A DNA stretch of 64,000 bases, from contig NZ_JACKUK010000034.1 of assembly GCF_025822765.1 (NCBI RefSeq), positions 1-64,000 of the forward strand, given 5' to 3'. The notes under the pieces were generated by a model, which saw nothing but the letters and a program-made list of their open reading frames with translations, had not been told where the DNA came from and made no database searches. Below, piece after piece: positions 1 to 11,811 of this stretch. Both the position numbers and the translations under genes were made by a program. The stretch's first letter is position 1. Every line of letters starts with the position of its first letter. The DNA comes from Mycobacterium barrassiae (GTDB taxonomy: Bacteria > Actinomycetota > Actinomycetes > Mycobacteriales > Mycobacteriaceae).

Positions 1-95
1 GCATCCTCCACGGCTGCCTGCGCCACCGCACCGCATACGACGAGCAGACAGCATGGTCGCACCGCCAAAACATCCCCACCGCAAAGGCCGCTTGA
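1..95 (+). mobile_element. C-terminal end of an IS110-like transposase (cut by window start)
   Basis: An open frame enters from the left edge (codons in phase from base 3) and stops at TGA 93-95. The visible tail includes ILHGCLRHRTAYDEQTAWSH, then a short basic stretch. This looks like the extreme C-terminus of actinobacterial IS110-family (DEDD) transposases, which often end in a ...HGCL..G..YDE.TAW.H.. segment. That is a recalled family pattern and has not been searched. The frame stops about 13 bases before the DUF4396 reading frame begins, so the right end of the element probably lies around 96-112. Another transposase family is possible. Confidence 0.45.
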
Positions 96-107
96 CAACT
101 TGCGCAC

Positions 108-683
108 TTGGGATGTCTAACCGGCTGTGCCATCGGCGAGATCGTCGGCCTCATTATCGGCACGGCGCTTGGCTTGTCGAATCTGGCCACCATCGCCTTG
201 GCGATAGCACTGGCCTTCGTCTTTGGGTATTCACTTTCGACGCTTCCCCTGCTCAAAGCAGGTTTGACTTTGGGCGCCGCACTCGGCGTGGTTCTCGCAG
301 CGGATACATTGTCGATTCTGACGATGGAACTCGTCGACAACCTTGTGATGGCGGTCATTCCCGGAGCGATGAATGCCGGCCTGGTGAATCCGATCTTCTG
401 GGTGGGCATGATGATTGCGCTCGCCGCTGCCTTTTTTGCCGCCTATCCCGTCAATCGGGTGCTATTGCAGCGCGGCAAGGGGCATGCACTGACCCACCAA
501 TACCATGGCGCCGAGGGAACAGCCACGGGCGCAAGGCGATTCATTCCGTCGTTCAGCACCGGCGCACTGGTAGCCGTCATCGTGGCATTCATGCTAGGTG
601 GATTAGTGGTGTCGGTCGCTGATGAGTTAACGCAAGCAAGCCCAGGACCAAGCCATGCGAAAGCGCTTGTGCCGCAGGTCTAG
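108..683 (+). pseudogene. DUF4396 membrane protein, 5' end apparently removed by the IS
   Basis: The 191-residue frame opens directly at the conserved CLTGCAIGE motif of DUF4396 proteins. It has about four hydrophobic segments (roughly residues 8-40, 48-68, 95-118 and 148-168). Intact family members carry a further N-terminal stretch before this motif. Here an in-frame TGA at 93-95 ends the neighbouring transposase, and no ATG or ribosome site lies between. The only in-frame start is TTG at 108, with no Shine-Dalgarno sequence. The simplest reading is that an insertion sequence removed the promoter and first codons. The remainder has no internal stop, so the event may be recent or the shortened protein may still be made. 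The family's function is unknown; the copper-type operators at 1096-1167 hint at metal-related DNA here. Confidence 0.6.
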
Positions 684-2949: not shown

Positions 2950-3194
2950 CGGGGATCACTGCGAAAGCGGATCCTCACGCGAGATCCCGAGTGTCAGATC
3001 CGTGGTGATCGTTGTGCAGGTCGAGCACAGAAGTTGACCACATCAACGGCACCTCGATCACTCCGAAGCGAACCTTCGTGGTGTTGTGTGCTCCGCGCCA
3101 CGCGTCACGGACCAGTCGGCAACGACTGGCTGCGAAAGCGGCAATGCGTACGAAGCGGTATCGGCTTCAGGATAAGCACCCCGGCAGCATCTGA
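2950..3194 (+). pseudogene. Frameshifted HNH endonuclease remnant
   Basis: Frame 1 reads RKRILTRDPECQIRGDRC, the zinc-knuckle start of small phage-type HNH nucleases, up to about 3026. The continuation is in the next frame: TEVDHINGT, then VVLCAPRHASRTSRQ, ending HPGSI-stop at 3194. Restoring one base near 3026-3027 gives CAGRATEVDHI, the expected join. The second zinc pair is also damaged: the usual CxxCH is CAPRH. Frameshift plus a lost Cys argue for a dead gene. Such nucleases usually sit beside phage terminase genes, so this is a likely prophage relic. Confidence 0.7.
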
Positions 3195-3212: not shown

Positions 3213-4190
3213 TCAACACCACTCCCCCGGGGTATTGGTTATGTCGTGTCGCACAACCAATTCTGTGTGCGCGGGGGGATCCCATGACCTTATGTAACTG
3301 TTGAGATCTTCACCCTCCAAACTCATCGCCTTCCCTCGGCAGGCATGATGCGGCCCGAAGGCTTCACCGCTGAAGCCCGTCTCGGGCACGAACATGAAAG
3401 ACGGTCTGTCATCAGCCAAACTGGGCGTTGAAACGTTTGTCAGGAGCGTCTCACCCTTCGGGTCGTCATACGAGAGCCTCGGGAGGGACATGACCATGGC
3501 GTCCAGTCCTACGCGCGAAACGAGACCGGGCTCATTCGGGTCGGCGCGCTCGCTGATGGCTCGCTGGACTTTAATCATGAGGCGAACCCATCCGTCCCAA
3601 TTTTGGTCGTGATACAACCGCGGACCGAGTTTCTTTATGAGACGCATGTCGTCAAACGCGAAGGGGTGACCGCTTGTGCGGTGGATAAATGCCACGTCTG
3701 CGTCAACGGCGCCCGAATATCGGTTGATGTAAGTTTCGAACTCAGGGAAGGCATGCGGGTAGATTTTCACCCCGTCGTCTTCGCTTCGTTCGTAGTTCGA
3801 GATGCAGTAGCAGACAGATGTGATGCCGTCTCCGGGTATGTCGGGAAACTTCGCGAATCCTGACATCGTTACGGTCATCCGCTTATCCCAACGGTGCGGG
3901 AGCATGCCGACTCGATGGTCCAGCGATGCCTGAAGCATTTCGACGACAGCCGTCACGTCCCCGGCAGCATCGCCGTTTCGGGCCAGTGTGGCAGCAATCC
4001 ACTCGCTGGTGGGGAGTTCCGACGCTCGGTGATCCATAAAGGCGGGGCCGGTAAACGCGACAAAGAACTTGCCGCACCATGACACCACCTTGTTGGTGCT
4101 GTCGCTGACCGGTTCGCCCTCTTTGGTCAACCGTCGGTCTGAGACCTGCAGGATTCGGGTAGGACTCAGGAGGGTCTGAATCAGCGTCAC
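3213..4190 (-). CDS. Proteasome/HslV-like Thr-nucleophile (Ntn) hydrolase, unclassified family
   Basis: The protein has 325 residues with GTG 4190 as start. An upstream in-frame GTG (4217) is open but is rejected because the internal start gives MTLIQTLL. After Met removal, Thr1 is followed by Asp17 (SDRRLT), Lys33 (DSTNK) and Gly47 (FVAFTG), the spacing of the catalytic Thr1/Asp17/Lys33 and Gly47 of proteasome beta subunits and HslV. This match was counted by hand. The C-terminal about 200 residues match nothing I recognise; the whole is longer than HslV (about 180) or Anbu (about 240). There is no signal peptide. It lies 13 bp downstream of the kinase gene on the same strand, so it is probably co-transcribed. 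A peptidase or amidase role, perhaps controlled by the kinase, is inference. Confidence 0.65.
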   Translation of the reverse strand: MTLIQTLLSPTRILQVSDRRLTKEGEPVSDSTNKVVSWCGKFFVAFTGPAFMDHRASELPTSEWIAATLARNGDAAGDVTAVVEMLQASLDHRVGMLPHRWDKRMTVTMSGFAKFPDIPGDGITSVCYCISNYERSEDDGVKIYPHAFPEFETYINRYSGAVDADVAFIHRTSGHPFAFDDMRLIKKLGPRLYHDQNWDGWVRLMIKVQRAISERADPNEPGLVSRVGLDAMVMSLPRLSYDDPKGETLLTNVSTPSLADDRPSFMFVPETGFSGEAFGPHHACRGKAMSLEGEDLNSYIRSWDPPAHTELVVRHDITNTPGEWC

Positions 4191-4203
4191 AGAACTTGCC
4201 CAA

Positions 4204-5463
4204 TCATGCTGGGGCACCTATTGGTTCGGTCTCAAGATTCTCTATCGCCTCGATGACCTTCAGTACCGTCTGATACCGCTGCGTCGGATCTGAATGGGAG
4301 CACTTCTGGATGATCTCACCGAGGGAACTGAAATCCGAGATGAGCCGGTTGACGCCCTTGAATATGTACGTCAGCACAAAGCCCACCACGTAGATGTCGT
4401 TGACAGGCTCGAATTCCTTGAACTTGTCCAGGGCCGGGTCCACGATAGTTCCCTTGATCTCGGTCTCCGACTTCGTGAACTCGGACTCTCGTGGCTTCGC
4501 CAGGCCGAAGTCTGAAAGCTTTACCTGGACCGCCCCGTTCGAGAACACGCGAAGAAGAATGTTCTTCAGACTCAGGTCGCGGTGGCAGATCCCCTTCCTG
4601 TGAAGGTAGTTGAGGCCGTATAGGAATTGGAGTGCGATCCTGCGCCGAACGCTGAAGTCGAACTGCGGCTGATTGTTTCGCCGCTTGATGTGCTCCTCAA
4701 GGGTCGTCTCGCAGAACTCCATCGTGTAGGAGTTCTCTTCCTCGTCGTACTTGTGGACCTTGAGGATGTACGGGAAGTCGAGCCCCTTCATGATCTCGAA
4801 CTCACGGCGGAACCGTGCAATGTCACGCTCGTCAGCGTCCCGCTTCAGCTTCTTCCTGGCGAAAGTGATGTCGTAGTTGGGATCCACGAACTTGTGGACT
4901 ATCGCGAAGGCCCCCTCGCCGACGAGGGTGAGGGATACCTGCGAGCTGTCGGCCAGGACGACGGCGGCGTCGGCCAACCCAAACACCGTGTCGTACTTCT
5001 CCACGAGAACCGGCGCGAAGCCATCGGGAATCGTGCTCCCACCGCTGTCGACCACCCATGTCTTGGCACCCTCGAGGACCCGCTGATATTCCGGTGCCAC
5101 CGTGAGCGATTTTCCGACCTTCGCCAATGCCAGCTCCAGTTCGGCGACCTCTTCGATGAGAGCGAGCAGATTGCGGCTGTTGTCGGCGTTGAAGTGCCCG
5201 CCTCCATACAGCCCACCGCTGCGGGCTTTCTGGTTCATGAAGTCGAATTCGGCGTCCAACCGCGAGTGGATCGCCGCGAATGCCCACTCCAGTGGATCGA
5301 CAAGCTGGAGAGAGTTAGGGGTGCGGTACATGTCGAAATAGTCGGGATCGACATACTTGTCCTTGTACTGCCTTAAAACCCGCTCTAGCCGTCTCTCCTC
5401 TGGTGAAGCCACAGGGTCCATTGTGTCATCGAGCGCCGACCGCCCAGCCGCATCGTCACGCAA
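4204..5463 (-). CDS. Ser/Thr protein kinase with novel N-terminal domain
   Basis: The 419-residue protein starts at TTG 5463; ATG 5421 (residue 15) is an alternative and neither has a strong ribosome site. Residues 1-175 form an uncharacterised domain with GGGHFNADNSRNLLALIEE (about 87-105) and SGGSTIPDGF (about 140-149), motifs I associate with bacterial defence-type multidomain proteins. Residues 178-410 are a complete kinase: Gly loop GEGAFA (182-187), Lys204, alpha-C Glu near 221, HRDLSLKN (294-301, catalytic Asp296) and DFG (318-320). It has no transmembrane or PASTA domain, unlike mycobacterial PknA/B types, so it is cytosolic. It heads a two-gene unit with the proteasome-like hydrolase. 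Targets are unknown. Confidence 0.85.
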   Translation of the reverse strand: MRDDAAGRSALDDTMDPVASPEERRLERVLRQYKDKYVDPDYFDMYRTPNSLQLVDPLEWAFAAIHSRLDAEFDFMNQKARSGGLYGGGHFNADNSRNLLALIEEVAELELALAKVGKSLTVAPEYQRVLEGAKTWVVDSGGSTIPDGFAPVLVEKYDTVFGLADAAVVLADSSQVSLTLVGEGAFAIVHKFVDPNYDITFARKKLKRDADERDIARFRREFEIMKGLDFPYILKVHKYDEEENSYTMEFCETTLEEHIKRRNNQPQFDFSVRRRIALQFLYGLNYLHRKGICHRDLSLKNILLRVFSNGAVQVKLSDFGLAKPRESEFTKSETEIKGTIVDPALDKFKEFEPVNDIYVVGFVLTYIFKGVNRLISDFSSLGEIIQKCSHSDPTQRYQTVLKVIEAIENLETEPIGAPA

Positions 5464-5518: not shown

Positions 5519-7147
5519 TCAGTGGTGGTGATGACCGTGCCCATGGCTGTGACCGTGGTCATCCTCATCCTGGCTTACCGCTTCGACAACCGCGGTCTCG
5601 GTGGTCAGCACCATCCGCGCGACGGATGCCGCGTTCAGCACCGCCGACCGGGTGACCTTGACGGGGTCGACGACACCGGCGGCGGCCAGATCGCCGTACT
5701 CGAGCGTCGCGGCGTTGAAGCCCTGCCCGGCGGGCAGTTCGGCGACCTTGCTCACCACCACCGAGCCGTCGAGCCCGGCGTTGGTGGCGATCCAGTACAG
5801 CGGCGAACTCAGCGCAGAGGCGAACACGTCGACGCCCAGTGCTTCATCACCCGAGAGTGATTCGCGCAGCTTGGCGAGCACCGAGCCGGCCTGTACGAGT
5901 GCCGAGCCGCCACCGGCGACGATGCCCTCCTCCACGGCCGCCTTGGCTGCCGACACGGCATCCTCGACGGCTTCCTTGCGCTTCTTGAGGTCGGTTTCGG
6001 TGGCCGCGCCGACCTTGATGACGGCGACGCCGCCGGACAGCTTGGCCAACCGCTCCTCGAGCTTCTCGCGATCCCAGTCGGAATCGCTGACTTCGATCTC
6101 GGAGCGCAGCTGGGCCTTACGCGCCTCGATGGCGTCCTGCGTACCACCGCCGTCGACGATGACCGTGCTGTCCTTGTCGACGACGATGCGGCGGGCGGTG
6201 CCCAGCACGTCGAGGCCGACCTCGCGCAGCAACAGGCCTACGTCGGGGTTGACGACCTGTCCGCCGGTGACCACGGCCAGATCCTCGAGGAACGCCTTGC
6301 GGCGGTCACCGAAGAACGGCGCCTTGACAGCAACGGCCTTGAGCGTCTTGCGAATCGCGTTGACCACGAGCGTCGAAAGCGGCTCGCCCTCGACGTCCTC
6401 CGCCACGATCAGCAGCGGCTTGCCAGCCTCGGCGACCTTCTCCAGCAGCGGAAGAAGATCGGGCAGCGAGCTGATCTTCTCGCGGTGCAGCAGGACCAGT
6501 GCGTCCTCGAGCACGGCTTCCTGCGAATCGAAGTCGGTGATGAAGTACGCGGAGATGAAGCCCTTGTCGAAGCCCACACCCTCGGTGACCTCGAGCTCGG
6601 TGTTCAGCGTCGAGGACTCCTCGACCGTCACGACGCCGTCGGCGCCGACGGCGGTCATCGCCTCGCCCACCAGCTCGCCGACCTGCTCGTCGCGCGAGGA
6701 GACGGTCGCGACCTGAGCGATGCCGGTCTTGTCGCTGACGGGAGTCGCCGCCGCCAGAAGCGCTTCGGAGACCGCGTCGGCGGCCTTGCTGATGCCCGAG
6801 CCGAGTGCGATCGGGTTGGCGCCCGCTGCCACGTTGCGCAGACCCGCCTTGATGATCGCCTGCGCGAGCACCGTCGCCGTGGTGGTGCCGTCGCCTGCGA
6901 CGTCGTTGGTCTTGGTCGCGACCGACTTCACCAGCTGGGCACCCAGGTTCTCGAACGGATCCTCCAGGTCGATCTCGCGGGCGATGGTGACGCCGTCGTT
7001 GGTCACCACGGGGCCGCCGTACGCCTTGGCCAGCACCACGTGCCGCCCGCGCGGGCCAAGCGTGATCCGCACGGCGTCGGCGAGCTTGTCGACCCCGGCT
7101 TCCATTGCCCGGCGCGCAGTTTCGTTGAACTCAATCTGCTTGCTCAT
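5519..7147 (-). CDS. groEL1: Chaperonin GroEL1 (60 kDa), His-rich tail
   Basis: This 542-residue cytosolic chaperonin has the canonical ATPase segment [14 protein letters not shown] (about residues 85-98) and full-length equatorial, intermediate and apical domains. The tail ends [14 protein letters not shown], where typical GroEL (mycobacterial GroEL2) has GGM repeats. The His-rich tail and linkage to groES identify GroEL1, which in mycobacteria is dispensable and tied to biofilm mycolate synthesis and metal binding. Start ATG 7147 follows AGGAAG. It lies 90 bp downstream of groES, with a hairpin between them, in a CIRCE-controlled operon. Confidence 0.97.
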
Positions 7148-10727: not shown

Positions 10728-11811
10728 GGTCCCGAATCCGTTCCCGGACACGGCGGGTCAGCGCGACGAGCTTGGAGGGAGTGGCGCGCTCGACCAACCG
10801 AACCAGCGCATCGTCGATGATCTCCGGCTGCTCAAGCTCCACGAGATGTCCTGCGCCCTCGACGATCACGAGTTCGGACTTCGGCAGGGCGTCGGCCATG
10901 TCCTGCGAATACTCCATCGGGGTGAGCAGATCCTCGTCACCGCACGCGATCAGCGTCGGCACTTTCGCCAGGGTGCTCAGCCCTTCGGTCTCGTCGTGAA
11001 CTTCGAGCGCGTGCAGGAATTCGACCAGTGTCTCGATCGGGGTGTCGTGCATCATCTTCTCGGAGAATTCGACGACGCTCGGGCTGATCTTCTCGTCGCC
11101 GTAGGAGGCCGCACGCAGGATGGGCGCAATCACCGATTTGGCGGCACCGCGGGTGCGATGCACAGTCTTCGGTGCGTAGCGGACGGCGAAGCGGACCGCC
11201 TCCAGCGCGGGGTTCTTCAGGATCTCCCCCAGCGGGGAGCGTGAAACCCCTTCCGCCGCAGACGCAATCAGCGCTGCACCCACGACGCGGGTCGGATAAC
11301 GCTGGGGATACTGCCGCGCGTGCGACAACACCGTCATGCCGCCCATCGAATGGCCCACCAGCACGACCGGCCCGCGCGGTGCCATCACCGCCAGGACGGT
11401 CTCCAGGTCCCTGCCCAGTTGCTCGACCGTGTAGGTGTCCGGTGGCGCCTGACCGGACTGCCCGTGCCCACGCTGGTCGTAGAACACCATCCGCACCTGC
11501 GAGCCCCACTCCTCGGTCAGGCGGGCACGCTGGAAATGGAAAGCGCCCATGCGGAGACAGAAGCCGTGCGCGAAGACGACCGTCAGCCGGGCATCCTTGT
11601 CGCCCACCTCGCGAACGGCGAGGTCGACACCGTCCGGGGTGGTGATGACGACGCTGCGGTCGGCGTCGAGAAGGCCGAAATCCTCGTATTCGTAAGGGTC
11701 GTCGCTACTGACGCGGCGCCGCAGCGACCTGGCGACCGACACCGCGGTCGCGGTGCCGACAGCGGTCACACCCGCCGCGCCCGCCAGCCAACGAGCCCCT
11801 TGATCGCTCAA
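10720..11811 (-). CDS. Alpha/beta hydrolase
   Basis: The 363-residue protein has a hydrophobic N-terminus (residues 8-28) that may be a membrane anchor or signal. It shows [18 protein letters not shown] (oxyanion HG), DQRGHGQSG and the nucleophile elbow VGHSMGGMT, with an acid and His near the C-terminus ([16 protein letters not shown]). Lipase or esterase activity is likely and the substrate unknown. The TTG start overlaps the alr stop as TTGA, so translation is coupled to alr. The gene bridges alr and tsaE in the operon. Confidence 0.9.

Follow-up and report, generated by a model that had tools for sequence, protein, structure and literature searches.

Near one end of a 64,000-nucleotide stretch of the Mycobacterium barrassiae genome (assembly GCF_025822765.1, contig NZ_JACKUK010000034.1, positions 1 to 64,000; here called the window), a gene for a protein kinase is followed at once by a gene whose product resembles proteasome subunits. 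This raises the question of whether the two form one system or are separate passengers, and what they might do for the DNA that carries them. The first-pass annotation had read them as a kinase-controlled proteolytic module of defence-like layout in mobile DNA. Coordinates, the minus strand and the reading frames of positions 3213-5463 were re-checked and found to be correct, and the following features bear on the question.

1..124, no strand assigned: repeat at the contig start, recurring at five other places in the assembly, three of which are contig starts
3021..3191, plus strand: relic of an HNH endonuclease gene (phage/satellite), convergent with the hydrolase gene
3213..4190, minus strand: gene for a predicted proteasome-like Ntn hydrolase, 325 aa counted from its GTG start, with the Thr1 codon at 4185-4187
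4191..4203, minus strand: gap of 13 bases from the kinase stop codon to the hydrolase start
4204..5421, minus strand: gene for a soluble Ser/Thr protein kinase, 405 aa from the likely ATG at 5421, the frame being open from a TTG at 5463
5519..7147, minus strand: host gene groEL1, present in 60 of 60 genomes of the genus, its 3' end being the likely insertion site
5522..5606, minus strand: 3' end of groEL1 with an exchanged tail, read as an attachment junction, with an 18-base core at 5589-5606

The GTG at 4190 is internal to a longer open reading frame, and the codon that follows it specifies Thr. As ATG or GTG was found immediately 5' of the Thr1 codon in 15 of 16 related hydrolase loci (the exception, L019, has ATC), the 334-aa frame most likely begins nine codons too early. 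To examine residues across homologues, three alignments were used. In the smallest (A1; seven sequences), T, D, R, K, and G were invariant at positions 1, 17, 19, 33, and 47, respectively, and in the second (A2) the same five residues were kept in all 15 rows that cover the start, with 13 invariant columns altogether. Most A2 loci had been retrieved with DNA patterns containing D17-R19 or K33; thus, those positions were partly selected for in A2, whereas T1 and G47 were not. In the third alignment (A3), consisting of 22 divergent homologues, T1, D17, K33, and G47 were the sole invariant columns. The genus set of hydrolases was obtained by a whole-protein search, and eight of the 22 A3 rows by a profile search. 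Omitted from A3 were the partial sequences L012 and L019, L017 and L018 (the same as L016), L021 (odd C terminus), G180 (a match of 25 residues only), the plasmid copy (L005/L011), L009/L048, and L049; L005 and L009 are present in A1.

Using HHalign, A3 was found to match the proteasome beta subunit PrcB with a score of 29.5 (E = 0.0013), residues 1 to 50 lying gap-free on residues 1 to 50, while the best of 50 column shuffles scored 19.8, the reversed profile scored 17.6, and no shuffle fell on the 1-50 diagonal. The shallower A2 gave no significant match to PrcB (17.8, with 17.8 for the best of 20 shuffles and 19.3 for the reversed profile), and its profile retrieved no proteasome chain from the PDB, with two chance matches only (E = 1.1 and 2.8). 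The Pfam Proteasome family (PF00227) weakly matched three of the 22 A3 members (best E = 0.073) and did not match the window hydrolase itself, which hit no family of Pfam, NCBIfam, or PADLOC at E ≤ 1 and had only chance-level matches in PHROGs (best E = 0.056). The invariant residues and the A3 profile match indicate that the product of 3213-4190(-) is very likely a proteasome-like Thr hydrolase with a putative Ntn fold. The proposal that an internal GTG places Thr1, Asp17, Lys33, and Gly47 at proteasome positions was thus borne out by the codons and the 22-sequence alignment, and Thr1, Asp17, and Lys33, for which poor conservation was a possibility, proved to be conserved among homologues.

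The kinase domain occupies residues 179 to 370 of the 419-aa frame (about 4354-4929; Pfam Pkinase, E = 2.1e-28), and its catalytic motifs (GEGAFA, the FARKK lysine, HRD, and DFG) are intact. The N-terminal region of approximately 170 aa has no match in Pfam and is common to plasmid relatives; of 101 plasmid records matching the kinase, 80 cover at least 80% of the query. Relatives are 76 to 80% identical over nearly the full length.

Similarity of the window to a near relative (G039; 93% over 3.1 kb) ends at position 5521, and the last part of groEL1 carries a different 16-residue stretch in place of the usual D/E-K-P... tail. The same kind of tail was found in two related genomes, G004 and G009, in which elements of 12 to 13 kb with a serine integrase gene lie in the groEL1 3' end and the original D-K-P tail is displaced to a position 12 to 13 kb away, past the integrase gene. 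In G004 (locus L113), TIR, head-completion, capsid (Pfam Phage_capsid, E = 2.3e-11), and serine integrase genes and the displaced tail all lie within 12.0 kb of the exchanged-tail groEL1. The displaced core has three mismatches, a quality also reached by chance (at window position 11731), and is followed by D-K-P-A codons. In G009 (locus L114), the serine integrase gene and displaced tail are within 13.2 kb of groEL1, the head genes being judged by eye; Pfam gave no match for two phage-gene candidates of G009, nor for one candidate of G004 besides its head-completion protein. In four further genomes (G034, G036, G040, and G165), groEL1 is immediately followed by slot or satellite genes yet has a tail of the native type.

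Far less of such an element is present in the window. A tblastn search with proteins predicted from 23 satellite-like or kinase loci identified no capsid, head-completion, or integrase gene, and the only matches were the hydrolase, the kinase, the HNH relic, and a weak phage-type match at 1983-2132 (E = 3.9e-4). The relic, as first annotated, was confirmed by its match at 3021-3191(+) to an HNH protein (29.8% identity, E = 1.8e-8) that is encoded beside a head-completion gene in L151 and itself matches Pfam HNH. A search for the displaced groEL1 tail in the first 20 kb returned the groEL1 core itself and, as a presumed chance match, the three-mismatch site at 11731. The contig end lies 5.5 kb from groEL1; as bases 1-124 have five further copies in the assembly, a repeat broke the contig there. 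The IS tail annotated here corresponds to this repeat, and its assignment to an IS is putative. What the window contains resembles a degraded copy of a groEL1-inserted satellite-like element, from which a former full satellite is inferred.

Elsewhere, the slot next to the head-completion gene is occupied by TIR genes, the kinase gene, or the hydrolase gene. TIR genes, which match known defence families, were found in five of the 21 genomes having a head-completion gene. On viral contig L012, a hydrolase 80% identical to that of the window over residues 71 to 312 is convergent with a head-completion gene, the product of which is 59% identical to that of G004. A search of viral contigs with the kinase retrieved only the contig of L138, where the kinase is 80% identical to that of the window and the head-completion protein is 82 to 84% identical to that of L012; in G078, the kinase adjoins a head-completion relic. 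Both hydrolase and kinase thus occur as cargo of phage-satellite-like elements. Together with the exchanged groEL1 tail and the HNH relic, this supports the annotated mobile DNA. The suggested defence setting was upheld in part: the TIR genes of the slot are defence-like company, and the hydrolase has no PADLOC match.

The hydrolase was found in nine of 248 genomes of the genus (E ≤ 1e-3). The A2 searches at order and phylum level found it in 5 of 348 and 5 of 346 genomes, each count including the window's own, showing that the family is rare. Scanning of species genomes with the window hydrolase alone gave 11 pattern matches and no relatives, and replacing this single sequence with an alignment gave 15 loci. 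Many other copies adjoin phage, integrase, plasmid, or defence genes, a statement of raw co-location. As annotated for the window, no unfoldase appears to accompany the hydrolase, none being recognised by eye at copies with listed neighbours. Its distribution and C-terminal extension fit DAH, the Distant Actinobacterial proteasome Homolog (PMC8665760), and the hydrolase is probably a member of this uncharacterised family; PMI-4 and AAH, other families with phage members, fit less well.

The explanation favoured here, with moderate confidence, is a satellite remnant at groEL1 with two separate cargo genes, for which an anti-phage benefit is likeliest. A PICI-like phage-satellite element would have inserted at the groEL1 3' end, the window being what remains of it, and its cargo slot would retain two intact accessory genes, the soluble kinase and the proteasome-like hydrolase. 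The hydrolase would be made without a propeptide, methionine aminopeptidase removing Met to expose Thr1, with Asp17 and Lys33 as putative triad partners and Gly47 forming the presumed oxyanion hole. Most likely it would need no unfoldase of its own and would cleave or modify a particular substrate. An anti-phage cargo role, by which the element and its host may be protected against other phages, is considered the likeliest because TIR genes belonging to known defence families occupy the same slot in related elements.

The genes might instead serve the satellite or phage itself, the hydrolase processing a structural or regulatory phage protein, for example, or the kinase reprogramming the lysogen. 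Proteases for head maturation are often encoded by phages, and hydrolase copies do lie beside head and tail genes in satellites and Gordonia phages, next to an excise/integrase cassette. However, the hydrolase gene is convergent to, and outside, the structural operon in L010, L012, L015, and L028, the slot neighbours in sister elements are TIR genes, and copies are also plasmid-borne or located beside AbiEii, GmrSD, or an Eco57I-type methylase/helicase pair, with no head genes seen around the latter three in the stretches listed. A role of this kind is therefore considered rather unlikely. Slightly less weight is given to the idea, compatible with cargo of anti-phage benefit, that the hydrolase is no protease but a transpeptidase/ligase or an amidase whose target would be one particular protein or small molecule. 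The catalytic set is kept with no unfoldase partner recognised, and connectase, which is proteasome-like, is reported to be a monomeric protein ligase (PMC8665760).

Under the favoured cargo explanation, kinase and hydrolase would be independent units that landed adjacent rather than a fixed system. The opposite, a dedicated system with the hydrolase gated through phosphorylation by the kinase, is consistent with the intact state of both genes, their common strand, and the annotated spacing, which is exactly 13 bases (stop codon at 4204 to GTG at 4190). Tight upstream genes also exist at some other hydrolase loci (one for a 239-aa protein lies 13 bases upstream on a Mycobacterium marseillense plasmid, and at two loci one for a 178- to 193-aa membrane-type protein overlaps by 4 bases), so partner coupling could be a habit of the hydrolase family; in L010, phage gene 31 lies 71 bases upstream. 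Against this, a same-strand gene within 100 bases upstream is absent at nine of 15 hydrolase loci (two of the nine, L012 and L015, are at or near a contig end), and the upstream neighbour varies. The kinase, present in seven of the 248 genus genomes (E ≤ 1e-30), co-occurs with the hydrolase in two, side by side in the window only. A neighbourhood search revealed no conserved gene pairing: kinase and hydrolase adjoin at one of the 15 hydrolase loci examined for a nearby upstream gene, that of the window, and at none of four other loci with a kinase 72 to 80% identical to that of the window, where the 3' neighbours are a head-completion relic, genes for a 246-aa and a 197-aa protein, and an ISL3-type transposase gene. 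The neighbourhood and co-occurrence data speak against a conserved two-gene module, and a dedicated system is judged improbable. Thus, the annotated Thr hydrolase, lack of an unfoldase, mobile DNA, and defence-like company are supported, and the joint module is not. It is just as improbable that the two genes are relics without present function, as although the remainder of the element has been lost or has degenerated and a kinase copy behind groEL1 in G034 is split into two frames, both window frames are full length with dN/dS of 0.13 to 0.18 (kinase against three relatives, 0.13 to 0.18; hydrolase against its L012 relative, 0.157), values that average over the history before the element decayed.

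Several known systems invite comparison. phiRv1 and phiRv2, mycobacterial candidate PICIs, are likewise small, integrated, and equipped with integrase and capsid genes; the words groEL1, kinase, and TIR do not occur in the main text of PMC10654092, which describes them. Bxb1-type integration, according to a reference cited in PMC3642061, shares the serine integrase and groEL1 target; however, the window has no integrase gene, and the G004 and G009 elements are 12 to 13 kb long and not full phages. The mobile anti-phage kinases Stk2, PD-T4-6, and the MADS kinase resemble the window kinase in the kinase domain (PADLOC, E down to 3.8e-37), but in the matches listed (25 of 34) only this domain is aligned and the N-terminal region is uncovered; against NCBIfam MADS6 the score was 70.8, with a cut-off of 460.

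With PrcB and HslV the hydrolase shares the catalytic positions, and with PrcB an ungapped register over the first 50 residues, but it has 325 aa compared with 222 to 226 aa for mature PrcB (seven of 12 chains; the other five were counted only to residue 230), lacks the propeptide of PrcB, and was seen with neither a paired alpha subunit nor an unfoldase. Elsewhere, the host carries a pair of adjacent proteasome genes. Connectase belongs to the same superfamily and acts without an unfoldase; it is archaeal and is described as lacking helices H1-H2 and having a two-helix insertion (PMC8665760). In a limited literature collection, with one search from 2019 on, no paper joining proteasome-like or Ntn hydrolases with phage defence was found.

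The closest counterpart is DAH, one of 22 proteasome-like families, with limited functional clues, described by Fuchs, Alva, and Lupas in 2021 (PMC8665760). DAH has Thr1, Asp17, Lys33, and Gly47, no propeptide, an extra C-terminal part, and no AAA+ partner found, and it ranges over Actinobacteria, Proteobacteria, Cyanobacteria, other bacteria, and phages, the phage occurrence already being given in Table 1 of that study. We tentatively raise a broader idea, itself rather doubtful, that DAH-type hydrolases are unfoldase-free anti-phage effectors carried on phages, satellites, plasmids, and defence islands, working alone or with exchangeable infection-sensing upstream partners (a kinase, a HEPN-like protein, or a membrane protein). 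If so, the known anti-phage effectors would come to include the proteasome fold, and further mycobacterial defence genes could be sought in the groEL1 cargo slot; as this slot also holds TIR genes matching known defence families, a concrete test of the role of the hydrolase is possible. Whereas PMC8665760 gives no function-suggestive genomic context for DAH, the satellite and defence-gene company added here gives one family of 2021, probably DAH, a repeated setting as phage, satellite, plasmid, and defence-island cargo.

The gene order groES-groEL1-tsaD at the window locus is that of a mycobacterial genome, and the genes of interest are arranged as follows.

5519-7147, minus strand, groEL1, upstream of the kinase and hydrolase genes
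4204-5463, minus strand, Ser/Thr kinase frame of 419 amino acids, for which relatives suggest a start near 5421
3213-4190, minus strand, proteasome-like hydrolase ORF, read from a likely GTG start at 4190, 13 bases past the kinase frame

The kinase and hydrolase genes are both intact, with their catalytic residues present. The GTG start is considered likely because an ATG or GTG lies immediately 5' of the same Thr in 15 of 16 related loci (ATC in L019). Following removal of the Met, which presumably occurs, Thr would become residue 1, with Asp17, Arg19, Lys33, and Gly47 on proteasome numbers; PrcB from related genomes carries T1, D17, R19, K33, and G47 in identical register. As dN/dS was 0.157 for the hydrolase (239 codons) and 0.13 to 0.18 for the kinase (groEL1, 0.08 to 0.12), both genes are under protein-level constraint.

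The hydrolase matched no Pfam, NCBIfam, or PADLOC family, even at an E value of 1, and gave chance-level matches only to PHROGs (best E value, 0.056). Homologues were identified by whole-protein search in 9 of 248 genus genomes (own genome included), by phage search in nine records, every one a Gordonia phage, and by plasmid search in one record. Alignment-derived patterns searched against one genome per species (84,980 species) gave 15 loci, viral-contig searches gave one and two loci, and a profile search matched 5 of 348 order genomes and 5 of 346 phylum genomes (own genome included in each). Across 22 homologues from several phyla, exactly four columns were invariant, Thr1, Asp17, Lys33, and Gly47, with 8 of the 22 coming from the profile search and some recovered by patterns containing D17-R19 or K33 and hence not independent. 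A profile of these sequences (to window residue 250) aligned to 12 PrcB sequences with a score of 29.5 (E value, 0.0013), residues 1 to 50 on 1 to 50 without gaps, against at most 19.8 for 50 column shuffles, none on that diagonal, and 17.6 for the reversed profile. With a shallower alignment, the score against PrcB was 17.8 and not significant (20 shuffles reached 17.8, the reversed profile 19.3), a search of PDB chain sequences turned up no proteasome, and Pfam Proteasome was touched weakly by 3 of the 22 members (best E value, 0.073). Judged from its sequence, the protein is very likely an Ntn hydrolase with a presumed Ntn fold, and its catalysis would proceed without an unfoldase.

Some homologues carry a C-terminal SEC-C zinc motif, matched by Pfam SEC-C in 3 of the 22 (best E value, 2.5e-8; by eye, loci L023, L027, and L063), and TPR repeats were seen by eye in L066, hinting that such parts may be substrate-recruiting add-ons. 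Elsewhere in the M. barrassiae genome, contig C14 holds two adjacent proteasome genes, and a third Proteasome-family piece, possibly Anbu, lies on contig C23 (683501-683692).

The first-pass annotation had proposed that the kinase and hydrolase act jointly as a two-gene system with a defence or toxin-like layout. Within the 248 genomes, the hydrolase occurs in nine (E value, ≤1e-3), the kinase in seven (≤1e-30), and both in two (M. barrassiae and G203); they are adjacent solely in the window and lie on different contigs in G203. None of the four close relatives of the kinase (72 to 80% identity) is paired with the hydrolase, the next gene being a head-completion relic in G078, a gene for a 246-amino-acid protein in G118, an ISL3-type transposase gene in G034, where the kinase is broken, and a gene for a 197-amino-acid protein in the viral contig L138. 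A conserved pair is thus not upheld by the loci examined. In G034, groEL1 is immediately followed by the kinase, an arrangement shared with the window, yet this copy is split in two frames (L044 8898-10116).

A same-strand gene was found within 100 bases upstream of the hydrolase in 6 of 15 loci (five by script, plus L010, whose phage gene 31, annotated 71 bases upstream, was counted from the annotation), with L012 and L015 beginning at or near contig ends, where the upstream neighbour is only partly judgeable. This partner is the kinase in the window, a 239-amino-acid protein in plasmid L011, a membrane-type protein in L049 and L070, and an integrase in L061; the kinase is one among several upstream neighbours. 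The L011 partner (648-1367, separated by 13 bases from the hydrolase gene on this M. marseillense plasmid) has a C-terminal R-N-x3-H, HEPN-like by eye, and matches Pfam DUF4145 at an E value of 0.1 only.

In an uncontrolled sample of 16 distinct close-family contexts, annotation, Pfam, or tblastn supported the presence, no more than approximately 6 kb away, of a gene of phage, integrase, transposase, plasmid, or defence type in 14. These neighbours comprised the HNH relic in the window; integrase, excise, and tail genes in Gordonia phages; MobF and a recombinase beside the plasmid copy; AbiEii in L016; transposase and integrase in L048; an Eco57I-type methylase and UvrD helicase in L049; GmrSD and integrase in L070; and, in L012, a head-completion match below the Pfam cut-off. 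L014, L015, L019, L028, L061, and L064 complete the 14; L013 (IS3-like relic by eye) and L027 (S49 peptidase) are less sure. By eye, no mobile genes were evident in L022 to L026 or in the distant homologues L062, L063, L065 to L067, and L069, and L068 appeared plasmid-like. Hydrolase copies from two separate families within the order lie near orn by eye (L048 9207-10103 and L061 8446-8925), both with integrase genes nearby and the former adjoining a tRNA-like stretch (by eye); the orn vicinity is perhaps a second recurrent insertion site.

DNA 3' of groEL1 is highly variable in the genus, with 26 stretches of approximately 1.5 kb falling into 18 groups when nucleotide matches of 200 bases or more are used to link them (a 27th locus stopped within groEL1). 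The match between the window and its near relative G039, whose GroEL1 is 97% identical, is at 93% from 5521 upward, whereas below 5521 no match was found within the 9 kb compared. groEL1 is a known integration target of Bxb1, according to the title of a reference cited in PMC3642061. The groEL1 tail of G004 is exchanged, and behind it come genes for a TIR protein, a head-completion protein (convergent), a capsid protein, and a serine integrase; a displaced copy of the groEL1 core, then D-K-P-A codons, lies 12.0 kb on and mismatches at 3 of 18 bases, a level that chance matches also reach. G009 has EKVSQEDE as its exchanged tail, and a displaced core with D-K-P (1 mismatch) is found at a distance of 13.2 kb, past a serine integrase; the head genes of G009 were judged by eye, two candidates having no Pfam match. 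The window tail, EAVSQDEDD, is of the same exchanged kind, found only in these three of 26 complete ends, which points to the window holding one junction of such an element. An exchanged tail is not a necessary mark, as G034, G036, G040, and G165 keep a native-type tail despite slot or satellite genes directly downstream. The HNH relic (3021-3191) matches an HNH gene adjoining the head-completion gene in L151. The DUF4396 and DUF1326 genes at 108-1900 have diverged copies (74 to 75%) close together on contig C45 of the same genome.

The head-completion protein served as marker of the cargo slot; that of L012 is Phage_HCP-like (E value, 0.0026, below the Pfam cut-off), and that of G004 is 59% identical to it, with no Pfam match. 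Among 21 of the 248 genomes with the marker, at least five neighbourhoods (G004, G035, G055, G165, and G231) have a TIR gene adjacent to the marker or elsewhere in its interval, all five matched by Pfam TIR_2 (below cut-off for G004 and G165). PADLOC, run on four of the five, assigned ThsB in G035 and G055 (E values, 7e-73 and 2e-76), TIR-TM in G004 (7.5e-41), and PDC-S66 and ThsB-type TIR in G231. Other small genes separate the TIR and head-completion genes in G055, and in G231 the two share a strand. The kinase adjoins the marker in one neighbourhood (G078), and the remainder hold unknown-family proteins, host genes, or the phage gene that comes next. Two viral contigs whose head-completion proteins are 82 to 84% identical differ in what the slot holds, namely the hydrolase in L012 and the kinase plus the 197-amino-acid protein in L138. 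Slot genes are exchanged between elements, and both kinase and hydrolase occur in a satellite setting elsewhere. A 246- to 253-amino-acid protein without a Pfam match, which follows the kinase in G118 and is the sole occupant of the G113 satellite slot (L043 8156-8896 and L148 6527-7288; similarity by eye), is a candidate further cargo gene.

Both genes may confer an anti-phage benefit. The words groEL1, kinase, and TIR are absent from the main text of PMC10654092, which surveys prophages and candidate PICIs in mycobacteria. Term searches of a literature set exclusive of subscription papers and preprints found none that links proteasome-like proteins to anti-phage terms, which is no proof of absence. 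Among the 25 of 34 PADLOC matches shown, those of the kinase to Stk2, PD-T4-6, and MADS cover the kinase domain and do not place it in these systems. A prophage-encoded kinase-phosphatase module is reported to have anti-phage activity (PMC11341870); there is therefore precedent for a kinase carried by a prophage as defence cargo. Fuchs, Alva, and Lupas described 22 new proteasome-like families (PMC8665760) and reported no genomic context pointing to function and no AAA+ partners, with phage linkage for some families (PPH and AAH). Their Distant Actinobacterial proteasome Homolog (DAH) occurs in Actinobacteria, Proteobacteria, Cyanobacteria, other bacteria, and phages, has no propeptide, and has an extra C-terminal part; because of this taxon range and architecture, DAH is the family that fits the window hydrolase best, and the protein is probably a member.
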